Position numbers and translations under genes: made by a program. The notes under the pieces are model-generated. The model was not told where the DNA came from. It ran no database searches and saw nothing but the letters and a program-made list of their open reading frames with translations. From Candidatus Scybalocola fimicaballi (GTDB lineage Bacteria; Bacteroidota; Bacteroidia; Bacteroidales; Paludibacteraceae), in contig DCIP01000084.1 of NCBI GenBank assembly GCA_002317115.1, positions 1 to 20,022 on the forward strand: DNA of 20,022 nt, given 5' to 3'. Shown in pieces: positions 4,181-8,481 of this stretch (positions within the stretch are counted from its first letter, which is position 1; each line of letters begins with the position of its first letter).

Positions 4181-4709
4181 ATGCGAAAAAGATTTTTGTT
4201 ATGCGGCTTGATGGCTATCGCCGCAGTCAATTTCATCTCTTGCGATGACGAGGATGAAAAACAACGACAGCAAAGTCGAGAACAAAACAAACAACAATTC
4301 CAACGGAGGTACAACAACACCAAAACTTTCTGGAGAGTTTGTAAGTTCAAGTGATTGTCTAGGTTCACCTTGGGACCATGAAACAACAAGAGCAGGTATG
4401 TATGGATCATCTATCTCATACAAGTTTGATGAGTCAAAAGGCGAGTTGGATTTGACCTTTAAGCGTTCAGTTCTTGAATGTGCATCAATCCCTATGGTTG
4501 ACTTTGAATTCTCTGGAGACACAATTATCTATATGCCATATAATGCAGATACAAGCGGAGTTCATGCAGACTGTATGTGTGTCTATGACATTGCTGCAAA
4601 AGTGAAGGGCGTACAATCAAAGGTTTATTATATTCGTCCGAAGACAATGTTTGAAGAGGATCAACTTCAAGTGTTGGAACTATCACAAAAGAGTGAAGGC
4701 GAACTTTAA
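4181..4709 (+). pseudogene. Frameshifted small lipoprotein gene, first of a tandem pair
   Basis: ATG 4181 opens a lipoprotein signal peptide (MRKRFLLCGLMAIAAVNFISC, lipobox ending at Cys21). The frame then runs into A5 at 4257-4261 and ends early at a TGA near 4352. The rest of the protein continues in the +1 frame to TAA at 4707-4709. The intact paralogue downstream has A4 at the equivalent place (4831-4834), and the 42 nt that follow are identical in both copies. The first gene therefore carries a one-base insertion. Removing it gives a 175-residue lipoprotein colinear with its neighbour, sharing the DCLGSP motif, a second conserved Cys and the ending VLELSQKSEG. An ATG at 4245 could start the downstream part without a signal peptide, but I think that start is an artefact. 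It could be a genuine pseudogene, a phase-variable gene or an assembly error. The family is not recognised. Confidence 0.8.
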
Positions 4710-4754: not shown

Positions 4755-5327
4755 ATGAAAAAGACATTATTATATATCAGCTTGTTAGTTGTTTCTGCAT
4801 TCAATTTCATCTCATGCGAAGACGAGGATGAAAACAACGACAGCAAAGTCGAGAACAAAACAAACAACAATTCCAATGGAAGTACAACATCTAAGCTTTC
4901 TGGAAAATTTGTAAGTGCAAGTGATTGTTTGGGATCACCAGTTGCAGAAGAGACTCGTGCAGCTGTTGATGAGAATAACTATAAGCTTCCTGAACTAGTC
5001 TACAAGTATGACAAGTCGAAGCAAGAGATTGAGATCAACATCGAGAATGCGACACTTATATGTGGATCTCTTCCTAAGATGGATATGACATTCAAAGGTG
5101 ACACTATCATTGTCAATGTATTCGACAGCAGCGACAGAAGCTCATGGCAAAAATGTCAATGTACTTACAACGTTAAATCGATTGTAAACGGAGCAGAGTC
5201 TAAAGTCTATTATGTTCGTCCAGAAGTAGCAACAAACGAGGAAGATGTCAAGATTCTTGAGCTTTCGCAGAAAGAAGAAGGTAGATTTGCATTCTCATCT
5301 CCTTACGTTTTTAATTCTTACAAATAA
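4755..5327 (+). CDS. Small secreted lipoprotein, intact copy of tandem pair
   Basis: A 190-residue predicted lipoprotein. The signal peptide is MKKTLLYISLLVVSAFNFIS with lipobox Cys21, followed by an acidic stretch (EDEDENNDS). This resembles the lipoprotein export signal reported for surface lipoproteins in Bacteroidota, where acidic residues follow the Cys. An Asn/Ser/Thr-rich linker leads to a domain of about 140 residues, probably beta-rich, with conserved Cys in DCLGSP, LICGSLP and KCQCTY. All are shared with the frameshifted neighbour, so disulfides are possible. Unlike that neighbour it has an extra C-terminal tail after the shared LELSQK motif. The gap to the upstream copy is 45 nt, so they probably share one transcript, and a strong terminator follows. 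I do not recognise the family; an outer-membrane or surface location is inferred from the signal. Confidence 0.75.
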   Translation: MKKTLLYISLLVVSAFNFISCEDEDENNDSKVENKTNNNSNGSTTSKLSGKFVSASDCLGSPVAEETRAAVDENNYKLPELVYKYDKSKQEIEINIENATLICGSLPKMDMTFKGDTIIVNVFDSSDRSSWQKCQCTYNVKSIVNGAESKVYYVRPEVATNEEDVKILELSQKEEGRFAFSSPYVFNSYK

Positions 5328-5465: not shown

Positions 5466-6725
5466 ATGAAGGAAGAAGTATTACAGTACATTTGGAAGCA
5501 CCACCTGTATAAGGAGCCGCTCGTCACTACTGATGGCGAATCTGTAGAAGTGATAAATCCCGGAATGCATAATCAGTCGGCTGGACCTGATTTTTTCAAT
5601 GCCACAGTCAAGATAAATCGTTTGACATGGGTTGGAAATGTGGAACTGCATGTCAGGTCGTCGGATTGGAAAAAGCACAACCATGACGTGGATGGCAGAT
5701 ACGACAATGTGATTCTTCATGTGGTTGGCGACGCTGATGAGGATATATTGCGTAAGAATGGAGAACGTATTCCGACGGTGATGCTTAGAATATCAGACAA
5801 AGCGGCTAAAGTGGCTCAAGAGATTGCGTCGTCGCCATCAGATATCAAATGCTCACATTTTTGGAAACCGGAGTTTGTATCAGATATTCGTTTGAAATTT
5901 AGCAGTTTACTTTTTGAACGAATGGAACGACGAGCTGAAATCCTTCTTCAGAATATCAATAATTTAAAGACGACGTGGGATGAGATGCTCTACATTCTCA
6001 TCTGTCGCACAATGGGAGGAAATGTCAATCAGCAACCGTTTGAAACCCTTGCCCAACGAGTACCTCTTGACATCATCGGCAAGAAAGCAGATGAGGAATA
6101 TAAGATAGAAGCCCTACTCTATGGCGCGGCTGGTATGCTCGACGACGGTGATGACGATTACGTCGACAGACTACGATTGTTTTATAAATCCGCGTCGGCT
6201 TCATTTGATATCAAGAGGATGAACGGCACAGAGTGGAAATACAGCAAGATGAGACCACCGTCATTCCCAACCATAAGGATTTCTCAGATTTCCCAGTTGT
6301 TGTTTCGTCGGCTTAGAATGTTCACGCATATCATAGACTCTTGCGATATTGAGGAGATCAAGAAGATGTTTGAGATAGAAGTCTCAGACTATTGGCTCAC
6401 ACATTATAAGTTTGGCAAAGAGAGTAAAGCCAGGAAGAAAGAGATCGGTGTTGAGATGCAGAATGCGTTGATAATCAATGCTGTTGCACCTGCCGTATTT
6501 GCGTATGGAGTGCAAAACAATGATGAGAGCAAAAAAGAATGGGCGATTGAGATATTGGAGACGGTGCCGACGGAGATCAATAACATTACGAAATCTTGGG
6601 CTGAATTAGGAATAGAGGCCAAAGATGCGTCGGAGAGCCAGGCATTGATTGAGTTACGAAAAAACTATTGCGACAAGAGCAATTGCCTGAGATGTCCGAT
6701 TTGCAGGAAAATCATGAAATATTGA
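5466..6725 (+). CDS. DUF2851 family protein
   Basis: A 419-residue soluble protein that matches DUF2851, a family found mostly in Bacteroidota. Hallmarks are the start with LQYIWKHHLY, the SVEVINPGMHN and GPDFFNA motifs (about residues 27-46), and WVGNVELHVRSSDW followed by H-x-H-D (about 55-75). The protein ends with a Cys cluster of form C-x4-C-x2-C-x2-C (YCDKSNCLRCPIC), which could bind a metal. Length is normal for the family. No signal peptide or membrane segment is seen, so it is probably cytoplasmic. The family's function is not established. It has its own promoter upstream, and the stop is followed within about 12 nt by the first long direct repeat (R1). Confidence 0.9.
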   Translation: MKEEVLQYIWKHHLYKEPLVTTDGESVEVINPGMHNQSAGPDFFNATVKINRLTWVGNVELHVRSSDWKKHNHDVDGRYDNVILHVVGDADEDILRKNGERIPTVMLRISDKAAKVAQEIASSPSDIKCSHFWKPEFVSDIRLKFSSLLFERMERRAEILLQNINNLKTTWDEMLYILICRTMGGNVNQQPFETLAQRVPLDIIGKKADEEYKIEALLYGAAGMLDDGDDDYVDRLRLFYKSASASFDIKRMNGTEWKYSKMRPPSFPTIRISQISQLLFRRLRMFTHIIDSCDIEEIKKMFEIEVSDYWLTHYKFGKESKARKKEIGVEMQNALIINAVAPAVFAYGVQNNDESKKEWAIEILETVPTEINNITKSWAELGIEAKDASESQALIELRKNYCDKSNCLRCPICRKIMKY

Positions 6726-6737
6726 TGGATTAATATG

Positions 6738-6933
6738 AACAGAAAACCGCCATTAAAATAATAAAGTGGCGGGAAAACAGCCATCAAGATGTCTTAAAAC
6801 GCTTAACGCGGAAAATAAAAACGAAAGAAAACAAGAGAGTAAGTTTTTAAATGTTAGAGTTTACCCTGTTAAGGGTTTTCTGAAGCAAACGAGTTTGTGA
6901 GTTTTTCTAATTTAGACGTTGTTTATTATTTTA
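6738..6933 (+). repeat. Long direct repeat R1 (about 196 bp, structured), left of GxxExxY gene
   Basis: This is an imperfect direct copy of 7404-7609. Its first part is nearly identical to R2: a 33-nt identical block, then 19 nt identical after one change. Visible hairpins are 6747-6754 with 6765-6772 (CCGCCATT/AGTGGCGG, 10-nt AT loop), CGC-TTAAC-GCG at 6800-6810, ACCCT-GTTA-AGGGT at 6863-6876, and GCAAA-CGAG-TTTGT at 6885-6898. The middle (about 6811-6850) is poorly conserved. Near its end R1 has only the right arm (GACGTT, 6915-6920) of a hairpin that is complete in R2, as if about 11-14 nt were lost. The repeat runs almost into the ATG of the next gene, so it may also be that gene's 5' leader. 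It could be a mobile-element end or a structured RNA. Confidence 0.85.
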
Positions 6934-6947
6934 ACTAATAATTGGTT

Positions 6948-7397
6948 ATGTATATTGCAAAAGAAGAATTAAATAATTGTTTAAGACAAAGTTTAGTCGA
7001 TTTTTGTTATGATGTAATTGGATGCATGCATAATACTTATAAAGAGTTGTCTCCTGGTTTGCCAGAACCGATTTTCCAAGAGTCATTATTAATTGCTCTT
7101 AAAGAAGCTGGTTATAAAGATGCGGTACGAGAATATCATCATTTCCCAAAATTTAGAGGAGTTAAACTTTCAAGTCATATTCAACTGGATATTATGGTTC
7201 CAAAACAAGGACGTAATATCGCTATAGAGTGTAAATCTATAACGAAACTAAGTGATAAAGAACGAATTCAATTGTTTGGATATCTTCGGGCAACGGAGTT
7301 TCCTGTGGGAATTTTAGTGAATTTTGGTTCATTCCCAAAAGCTGAGATTGAAAGATATTATTATGATCGCAATAACAATACAATTAAGGCTTTTTAG
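6948..7397 (+). CDS. GxxExxY family protein, PD-(D/E)XK nuclease-like
   Basis: A 149-residue protein matching the GxxExxY family (PDDEXK_3-like). Conserved blocks are VIGCMHNTYKELSPGLPE (the family's G-x-x-E-x-x-Y appears as G37-L-P-E40-P-I-F43, with Phe for Tyr), FRGVKLSSHIQLDIMV, NIAIECKS, and QLFGYLRATEFPVGILVNFG. The residues D81 and E94-x-K96 fit a PD-(D/E)XK active site, so nuclease activity is possible but unproven for the family. ATG 6948 is chosen; a TTG six nt upstream is in frame but less likely. It lies between two long direct repeats, starting about 15 nt after R1 and stopping 7 nt before R2. By eye it is more AT-rich and uses more TTA, AAA and AAT codons than pyrC or the glycosyltransferase, which fits acquisition by transfer. 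Confidence 0.9.
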   Translation: MYIAKEELNNCLRQSLVDFCYDVIGCMHNTYKELSPGLPEPIFQESLLIALKEAGYKDAVREYHHFPKFRGVKLSSHIQLDIMVPKQGRNIAIECKSITKLSDKERIQLFGYLRATEFPVGILVNFGSFPKAEIERYYYDRNNNTIKAF

Positions 7398-7403
7398 TAT
7401 ATA

Positions 7404-7609
7404 AACAAAAATCGCCATTAAAATAATAAAGTGGCGGGAAAACAGTCATCAAGATGTCTTAAAACTCTTAATGAGGATAATTAAAAAAGAAAACCATTGA
7501 GATAGTTTTCAAATGTTAGAGTTTTCCCCGTTAAGGGTTTTATGAAACAAACTAGTTTGTGAGTTTTCCAAGCGTCAAAGTTTAATTTTAGACGCTGTTT
7601 TTTGTTTTA
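7404..7609 (+). repeat. Long direct repeat R2 (about 206 bp, structured), right of GxxExxY gene
   Basis: This is the partner of R1. Hairpins are 7412-7419 with 7430-7437 (TCGCCATT/AGTGGCGG), CTC-TTAAT-GAG at 7465-7475 (in R1 CGC/GCG, so the middle pair changed from G-C to T-A on both sides), CCC/GGG at 7526-7537, and a perfect 14-nt palindrome at 7547-7560 (ACAAACTAGTTTGT). It also has a complete AGCGTC/GACGCT hairpin near its end that R1 lacks. It fills most of the 340-nt gap between the GxxExxY gene and the glycosyltransferase gene. Confidence 0.85.
7571..7603 (+). terminator. Possible terminator at the end of R2
   Basis: AGCGTC (7571-7576) pairs perfectly with GACGCT (7591-7596) around a 14-nt AT-rich loop and is followed by GTTTTTT. 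The stem is short and the loop large, so this is a modest candidate. It would end transcription of the GxxExxY gene plus R2. Confidence 0.45.
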
Positions 7610-7737: not shown

Positions 7738-8481
7738 ATGAGCGGCGTAGTTATAATACCGACATACAATGAGAAAGAGAATGTGGAGAATATATGCAGA
7801 GCAGTCTTTGAATTGCCTGAGAATTTCCATGTTTTGATCATTGACGACGGTTCGCCAGACGGTACAGCTAACATTGTCAAGAAGATGATGGAAGAGGAGT
7901 TTTCCGACCGTCTGTTTATTATTGAGAGAGCAGGAAAACTTGGTTTGGGTACAGCGTATCTTACTGGATTCAAGTGGGCTATAGAGAAGAAGTATGATTT
8001 CATTTTTGAGATGGATGCTGATTTCTCACACAATCCTTTAGATTTGAGTAAGTTGTATGCGGCTTGCAACGAAGGCGGTGCTGACGTTGCAATCGGTTCA
8101 CGTTACGTTACAGGAGTGAATGTTGTGAACTGGCCAATCGGACGAGTTTTGATGTCGTATTTCGCGTCGAAGTATGTAAGAATAGTCACAGGAATGAACA
8201 TCCACGACACTACAGCCGGATTCAAATGTTATCGACGAGAGGTGTTGGAAACAATCGGTTTGGATACGATCAAGCTTAAAGGCTATGGTTTCCAGATTGA
8301 AATGAAATACACAGCTTATAAATGTGGATTCAAGGTCGTTGAGGTACCAATCATCTTCATCAACCGTGTGTTAGGTACATCAAAGATGTCAGGAGGAATT
8401 TTCGGAGAGGCATTGTTCGGTGTGATTGGATTGCGTCTTCGCAGCTTATTCAAGAAATATCCACAGAAGCAGAGTAAATAA
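7738..8481 (+). CDS. Polyprenol-phosphate mannosyltransferase-like GT2 glycosyltransferase
   Basis: A 247-residue family 2 glycosyltransferase of the dolichol-phosphate mannose synthase (Dpm1) type. It opens with VVIIPTYNEKENV and has IIDDGSPDG (D36-D37) for nucleotide-sugar binding. DAD at residues 93-95 in EMDADFSHNP is the metal-binding motif, followed by GSRYV and a DTTAGFKCYRREVLE block typical of the subgroup. It lacks the C-terminal membrane segments of GtrB-type enzymes and ends in a basic tail, as in soluble/peripheral Dpm1. The likely reaction is transfer of mannose (or another hexose) from its nucleotide sugar to a polyprenyl phosphate at the inner face of the cytoplasmic membrane. 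It has its own -7 box, and pyrC starts 21 nt after its stop, so they form an operon. From general knowledge this pair of neighbours also occurs in Bacteroides genomes. Confidence 0.88.
   Translation: MSGVVIIPTYNEKENVENICRAVFELPENFHVLIIDDGSPDGTANIVKKMMEEEFSDRLFIIERAGKLGLGTAYLTGFKWAIEKKYDFIFEMDADFSHNPLDLSKLYAACNEGGADVAIGSRYVTGVNVVNWPIGRVLMSYFASKYVRIVTGMNIHDTTAGFKCYRREVLETIGLDTIKLKGYGFQIEMKYTAYKCGFKVVEVPIIFINRVLGTSKMSGGIFGEALFGVIGLRLRSLFKKYPQKQSK

Follow-up and report, generated by a model that had tools for sequence, protein, structure and literature searches.

Genes of the GxxExxY family, whose products are predicted to be small nucleases, are often flanked by facing arms of short iterated boxes, and the GxxExxY gene studied here is bracketed by direct copies of a palindrome, which we designated R. 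On balance, we lean towards regarding GxxExxY proteins as the predicted nucleases of a repeat-embedded selfish or mobile module, of which the gene-less palindromes would be relatives. The strong and specific tie of the family to convergent iterated boxes provides a first testable substrate for it. In those parts of the open-licence literature that were searched, no description of a GxxExxY role or of flanking box repeats was found.

Organization of the window locus

The window, i.e. the whole analysed stretch of 20,022 nt from Candidatus Scybalocola fimicaballi, contains a GxxExxY gene between two repeats, R1 and R2 (Table 1). A first-pass annotation of the window had placed these repeats in direct orientation on both sides of the gene, and both the repeat search and blastn confirmed this arrangement. 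R1 and R2 are 87% identical over R1 positions 1-168 (blastn), and the repeat search divides their similarity into two blocks free of gaps, one of 79 nt (91%) and one of 91 nt (84%). The spacers measure 12 nt from the DUF2851 stop (6725) to R1, 14 nt from R1 to the ATG at 6948, and 6 nt from the stop codon of the GxxExxY gene (7395-7397) to R2. The direct-repeat score of the window was 238 compared to a maximum of 30 in 100 shuffles; a gene flanked by direct repeats with such a score is far outside chance expectation. In the arm test described below (start versus stop flanks), the window reached z 86.7 with direct repeats and z 4.7 with inverted ones. None of 200 dinucleotide shuffles folded as well as R2, and the folding of R1 was not significant (z -1.5; 19 of 200 dinucleotide shuffles as good). 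Two other ORFs in the window (4245-4709 and 4755-5327) have no Pfam match; both carry NNDSKVENKTNNNSNG and more, and they are apparently a tandem duplication.

Table 1. Features of the window locus.
Feature	Position	Strand	Description and basis
DUF2851 gene	5466..6725	+	conserved neighbour upstream of R1
R1	6738..6933	+	copy of the dispersed near-palindromic R family with degenerate 3' end; alignments
GxxExxY/PDDEXK_3 predicted nuclease gene (149 aa)	6948..7397	+	Pfam, conserved residues, purifying selection
R2	7404..7609	+	sister of R1 (support 100/99); z of folding -5.8
Glycosyltransferase family 2 gene	7738..8481	+	conserved neighbour downstream of R2

The product of ORF 6948..7397 matches PF13366 (PDDEXK_3) with 74.5 bits at a curated cut-off of 22. 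Its version of the name-giving motif is GLPEPIF, hence GxxExxF. In an alignment of 29 sequences (the window protein and 28 selected from 73 other matches), D81, E94-x-K96 and Q108-xxx-Y112 are invariant; the active site is thus conserved. The AlphaFold model of the window protein (pLDDT 95) resembles Cas4-like and other PD-(D/E)XK nucleases. As judged from alignment and model, the PD-(D/E)XK active site and fold are present, and the protein is a predicted nuclease.

The R family of palindromes

R is about 200 bp long, and its copies are dispersed beside unrelated genes. Many further copies were found with blastn in the host genome (2.88 Mb, 77.6% complete), and R was matched by blastn in eight of 41 relatives, all belonging to one genus. 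A covariance model built from 18 copies matches eight of the nine genomes of this genus (128 rows, both strands counted). Among 200 genomes of the family, it matches ten, namely these eight genus members and two genomes of another genus (G115 and G125), whose R loci were also matched by nhmmer. Altogether 81 R places were extracted with their flanks, 79 of them within the genus; 42 of the 81 pass a two-end filter, although five of these look decayed, and R1 and R2 entered this 42-copy set by name. Full copies have the 5' end AACAGAAAAC and the 3' end GTTTTCTGTT. Their interior carries GAAAAC boxes, spaced 15 to 41 nt, in the left half and GTTTTC boxes in the right half; the hairpins between the boxes covary by compensating substitutions, and the boxes are nearly fixed. 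At many places, the full length of the model is matched on both strands; R is therefore nearly palindromic.

In 25 of 26 context rows, which represent 23 distinct and partly orthologous copies, R overlaps no ORF of at least 80 aa; the genes next to R copies face all directions, and the orientations of R are mixed. R therefore shows the features of a MITE: it is short, has terminal inverted repeats and no ORF, and occurs in many scattered copies. Copies of R1/R2 at unrelated genes, which the first-pass annotation had named as an argument against its own proposal of a unit of gene and repeat, are indeed found genome- and genus-wide, and for R alone this argument holds.

Sites without R were found in relatives, one clear and three unclear among the matches listed. 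At the clearest site (L098), two genomes are without about 330 bp comprising R plus flanking sequence. From the alignments, these sites may reflect R insertion or, alternatively, deletion in the relatives. No target-site duplication was seen in the four site comparisons, in which the flanks have diverged and the indels exceed the R core. A longer element with two R ends was not detected either, as no second matching end was present in 14 regions around orphan right ends.

The stems of R were counted in 20 copies (the 42 copies minus the five decayed ones, R1, R2 and the four G001/G002 locus copies, with one copy retained per 95% group). In 11 stems, 1181 of 1292 cells are Watson-Crick pairs, 25 are G-U, 44 are A-C and 42 are other combinations; if one stem of doubtful register is omitted, 23 G-U stand against 21 A-C. 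The RNAalifold consensus of R shows compensatory change in 14 of 51 pairs. RNA made from one strand is expected to tolerate G-U far above A-C. As G-U is not above A-C in R, a structure kept on both DNA strands, i.e. a DNA-level element, is favoured. No Rfam family was matched by the window at the gathering score, the weak matches (up to E 5) being far below it. R is therefore unlikely to be a structured non-coding RNA.

Inverted arms and boxes at GxxExxY genes

The expectation that R copies also flank other GxxExxY genes was not borne out: no R was found within the flanks, up to 1.5 kb long, that were fetched for seven other GxxExxY genes of the genus. These flanks carry other iterated repeats, and for this reason the whole GxxExxY family was tested. 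It is spread patchily and in multiple copies, TIGR04256 being present in 182 of 395 sampled genomes of the phylum (Bacteroidota, judging by named relatives) with up to 10 per genome (E 1e-15, best 11 candidates each). In the arm test, the 350 nt preceding the start codon were aligned to the reverse-complemented 350 nt that follow the stop codon, with 100 dinucleotide shuffles as reference. The 70 loci tested consist of 30 from the best family matches and 40 picked lower in the same ranking (one listed GxxExxY match per region, L256 with two); they represent best-scoring family members rather than a random draw, and related genomes among them are not independent.

Inverted arms were found at 38 of the 70 GxxExxY genes (17/30 and 21/40), as compared to 1/36 ORFs of the same loci and 4/172 ORFs of the genus (5/208 together; Fisher p 4e-22), and 2/99 isolated ORFs gapped on both sides (p 4e-16); the 36 and 172 control ORFs were assessed with 40 shuffles and z>4 only, i.e. 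more laxly than the test set. Direct repeats were present at 5/30 and 12/40 GxxExxY genes, and at 2/36 same-locus, 10/172 genus and 4/99 isolated ORFs. The direct repeat of L256 is due to a neighbouring paralogue; if this locus with its adjacent second GxxExxY gene is omitted, 16/69 stand against 12/208 (Fisher, 1e-4), the paralogue exclusion having been applied to L256 alone. A score of 30 was reached by 20 of 40 matched pairs versus 20 of 320 mismatched pairs (the upstream flank of one locus with the downstream flank of another). As mismatched pairs also score, part of the similarity is due to a box common to many loci. Among eleven further loci, six pass for inverted arms (the window, L010, L061, L064, L202 and L203), L060 is borderline, and L009, L062, L065 and L201 fail. 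L203 (G044:C28), from another genus of the family, has its GxxExxY gene between direct repeats of ~190 bp that are 73% identical; they are not R, and the layout matches that of the window.

The arms are rows of a short box repeated about 8-11 nt apart: CACAGAG, CACGGAG, CGCAAAG, CGCAGAG and relatives. Most boxes lie less than 100 nt before the start and less than 60 nt after the stop, with extremes above 200 nt. The motif CRCRRAG, which was derived from the same 70 loci on which it was counted, occurs 122 times in forward versus 34 times in reverse orientation within 150 nt upstream of GxxExxY genes, and 27 versus 155 times within 150 nt downstream. At least two convergent boxes on each side are present at 38/70 GxxExxY genes, at 0/30 four-helix (TIGR02436) genes and at 0/242 control ORFs; the association is thus specific. 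Arms and boxes occur together at 26 of the 70 loci, either of them at 50 and neither at 20, and inverted arms are absent by the arm test at 32. Four-helix genes have inverted iterated arms as well (10/30), and as these are built of other boxes, the principle may extend further. Their boxes (loci L274-L303), such as TCTAAGAT/TCTGAG, are unlike those of GxxExxY genes.

In a small hold-out set of eight plasmid loci (8/10 places, one per plasmid record), three have at least two convergent boxes per side, and the same three pass the arm test. They come from Bernardetia, Bacteroides finegoldii and Gemmatirosa, the last belonging to Gemmatimonadota and thus lying outside the phylum. Five of the eight fail; by eye, a mirror arm of 11 nt is visible in Treponema and a short direct repeat in the Fusobacteria locus. 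The GxxExxY gene of a Sphingomonas parapaucimobilis plasmid (L329) has fabD and fabG as its same-strand neighbours, one on each side, and two box repeats immediately upstream.

The box subtype follows the protein tree. It requires six changes compared to a shuffled mean of 13.2, with none of 500 shuffles as low, for the 43 of 70 rows that could be labelled (the remaining 27 are ten mixed loci and 17 with fewer than three boxes). CAC-box and CGC-box proteins separate on this tree, in which L271, L232, L207 and L273 form long branches, and proteins that share a box type can cluster although their hosts belong to different families (e.g., L251, L255, L265). As an exception, the close relatives L228 and L245 differ in box type.

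Palindromes of the same kind also occur without a gene. A 400-kb part of genome G876 contains eight arrays of at least three boxes, versus none in five block shuffles. One pair of arrays flanks a GxxExxY gene as its arms; a second pair, built of the same boxes and located 4 kb away, makes up a gene-less palindrome; and a third pair makes up a palindrome of CTTCGTG/CACGAAG boxes. The last two arrays are solitary, and one of these is opposed, as seen by eye, by a shorter mirror arm. The boxes suggest that GxxExxY proteins may be the enzymes for CTCTGTG- and CTTTGCG-type palindromic repeats, and the nuclease may act on the boxes, which are its candidate substrate. The earlier idea of an endonuclease with structured repeats thus finds support at the level of the family, where arms are present at 38/70 loci and the box type tracks the protein. 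R itself has GAAAAC boxes, which differ from CRCRRAG, and its link to the gene goes back to a single ancestral event, so that R is at most a candidate cognate repeat of this nuclease.

The window locus in related genomes

The interval from the DUF2851 gene to the glycosyltransferase gene was compared in the genus genomes G000-G008 and was readable in all but G004, G007 and G008. The order is R-gene-R in G000, gene-R-R-fragment in G001, gene-R-R-R-fragment in G002 (one R partly N) and R-R-gene-R-R followed by the contig end in G003. G006 has a truncated R and no gene, and in G005, whose DUF2851 is at 42%, neither R nor the gene lies within the fetched stretch. An orthologue of the window gene was thus found in four genus genomes, and R copies adjoin it in all four, their number and position differing between species. 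The R copies of the locus group by genome (R1 with R2 in Table 1; G003 copies, support 100/97; G001 with G002, 100/99). The four G003 copies, a to d, are 93.6% alike for a versus c and 96.2% for b versus d; a similar two-copy block therefore lies on either side of the gene.

The DUF2851 protein of G006 is 98.8% identical to that of G003, and in G006 the GxxExxY gene has been lost. The left flank of the R remnant in G006 is as in copy a, one interior variant is as in b and d, and another as in c and d, a pattern read by eye at few diagnostic sites. Over all 170 aligned columns, the remnant is 83, 80, 78 and 81% identical to a, b, c and d, respectively; these low values are caused by its diverged right part. 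The remnant looks like an upstream/downstream hybrid, fitting recombination between an upstream copy and the last downstream copy. The suggestion that the gene can be lost between the repeats is therefore borne out by G006, which is without the gene and keeps a hybrid-looking R, and the locus offers a natural case where a bracketed gene was apparently deleted through its repeats.

The orthologues of the window gene share 79-81% protein identity. Their dN is 0.12-0.15 and dS is saturated between lineages, which indicates that the gene is under purifying selection. As the gene is old and selected, the window cassette is no fresh insertion. Between G001 and G003, dS of the GxxExxY gene is 3.3 versus 0.63 for DUF2851; dS of the glycosyltransferase gene between G001 and G006 is 0.72. 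With dS saturated this is a soft signal, which hints that the gene may have been replaced by a divergent allele at the locus.

Possible role of GxxExxY proteins and their repeats

If GxxExxY proteins belong to such modules, they would be small PD-(D/E)XK nucleases housed within repeat units. Short boxes iterated in arms that face the gene from both sides would travel with it, a palindrome repeated in direct orientation on either side of the gene would be an alternative form, and scattered gene-less palindromes with the same boxes would be non-autonomous relatives. The window would then represent the direct-repeat form, with the gene between two R palindromes, as it occurs in an uncultured Paludibacteraceae genus. 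R copies would spread, expand in tandem and become locally alike, and recombination between them would delete or exchange the gene in their midst. The nuclease may recognise or cut the boxes or the cruciform that they can form, this action might drive the spread, and R may be the cognate repeat of the window nuclease. More tentatively, and with less confidence than in the module as such, GxxExxY proteins could be the enzymes of widespread undescribed mobile elements, in which convergent arrays of cognate boxes and gene-less palindromes are spread by the same nuclease, possibly via cruciform cleavage.

A serious competitor, to which we nevertheless give less than even credence, is that R is a genus-specific MITE-like or ERIC-like palindrome moved by another enzyme, its adjacency to the GxxExxY gene being one ancestral accident. 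The 79 R places in eight of nine genus genomes, the virtual absence of ORFs (25 of 26 rows), the mixed orientations and inverted ends, and the one clear and three unclear R-less sites among the matches listed would all be expected of such an element; moreover, no R was found in the fetched flanks of seven other GxxExxY genes of the genus, and R persists in genomes without the window gene. However, R adjoins the gene in 4/4 genus genomes in which the orthologue was found, and arms or boxes are far more frequent at GxxExxY genes than at other genes. We consider it rather improbable that GxxExxY genes home into pre-existing REP-like palindromes, so that the repeats would be a target outside the unit. 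A gene-less palindrome with the same boxes does lie 4 kb from the gene-bearing one in G876, but the window R units are whole on both sides of the gene, and box subtype agrees with the protein tree in different host families, a pattern better explained by joint travel than by homing.

It is unlikely, in our estimate, that the flanks work as RNA, with the ORF in a hairpin loop that RNase III would excise, insertions being harmless and R a structured RNA. Four-helix genes, whose family TIGR02436 we take to be that of the 23S intervening-sequence ORF, have inverted arms too, R2 folds well as RNA, and several plasmid GxxExxY genes stand in same-strand gene rows; however, the four-helix arms are built of other boxes, R is found in mixed orientations and matches no Rfam family at gathering scores, and in its stems (20 copies, R1 and R2 not included) the G-U to A-C balance favours neither strand. 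That the boxes are operators of a self-regulated or toxin-like GxxExxY gene is very improbable: many loci have boxes near the start codon, yet boxes are equally frequent after the stop codon, in mirror orientation.

In REP/RAYT systems, a transposase gene is tied to palindromic repeats, the REPs of 20-40 bp, and gene-less copies are scattered in the genome. For REP palindromes with RAYT (TnpA-REP) tyrosine transposases and for REPINs (PMC2817692, PMC3116915, PMC8266576), the likeness lies in the combination of a nuclease or transposase gene with palindromes and gene-less copies elsewhere. Such gene-less copies of the flanking palindromes are present here, namely the R copies and the CACAGAG palindromes in the 400 kb of G876. 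In contrast to REPs, the arms are iterated heptamers or composite palindromes of ~200 bp, and the enzyme is a predicted PD-(D/E)XK rather than a Y1/HUH transposase. The window was therefore rejected as a REP/RAYT system, the flanked gene encoding no Y1/HUH transposase. By analogy, REP/RAYT is the nearest known arrangement, differing in enzyme class, and if our interpretation is correct, a PD-(D/E)XK nuclease would occupy the place held by Y1/HUH transposases in those systems.

The BrickBuilt MITE of Porphyromonas gingivalis (PMC4596501) is intergenic and lineage-restricted, with small inverted-repeat ends and internal modules. It resembles R in a host of the same order and as an intergenic, lineage-restricted MITE with inverted ends and internal repeated modules, whereas its core is a 23-nt tandem repeat. 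R, unlike BrickBuilt, consists of inverted GAAAAC/GTTTTC halves with covarying hairpins between the boxes, and has whole-unit tandem copies beside a predicted nuclease gene. In 23S rRNA, intervening sequences have an inverted repeat at their borders. Those with the S23 ORF, which are called selfish (PMC4990558), resemble the window locus in carrying a small ORF. The window gene, however, belongs to the TIGR04256/PF13366 PDDEXK_3 family and encodes a nuclease-like product between protein genes, and the CRCRRAG boxes of GxxExxY loci are absent at four-helix genes (0/30). Its location between the DUF2851 and glycosyltransferase genes led us to reject the window as a 23S rRNA intervening sequence.

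Other occurrences of R-like sequences

A scan of genome contigs for the R end pattern yielded 23 stretches, 22 of them in Paludibacteraceae or Bacteroidales MAGs, and the pattern was found in none of the viral contigs, phages and plasmids scanned. The 23rd stretch (L076), from a goat-cecum Lachnospira MAG, matches the last 40 model positions only (E 0.1) and may be a chance match or a mis-binned contig. The right half of R is also part of another mosaic repeat (L137, L140, L141, L142, L154), which measures ~400-490 bp and has ends like TAACGTCAATTCGANGAAAT. Furthermore, R fragments border a chromosomal hot spot with differing defence-like cargo in three species (L177, G003:C49; L178, G001:C14; L181, G006:C5), on the left side in 3/3 and on the right side in 2/3 cases. 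The cargo sets are putAbiC with KAP NTPase/PDC-S49, UvrD-like helicase with HSP70-TPR, and PDC-M11A with a kinase and a metallo-beta-lactamase fold.
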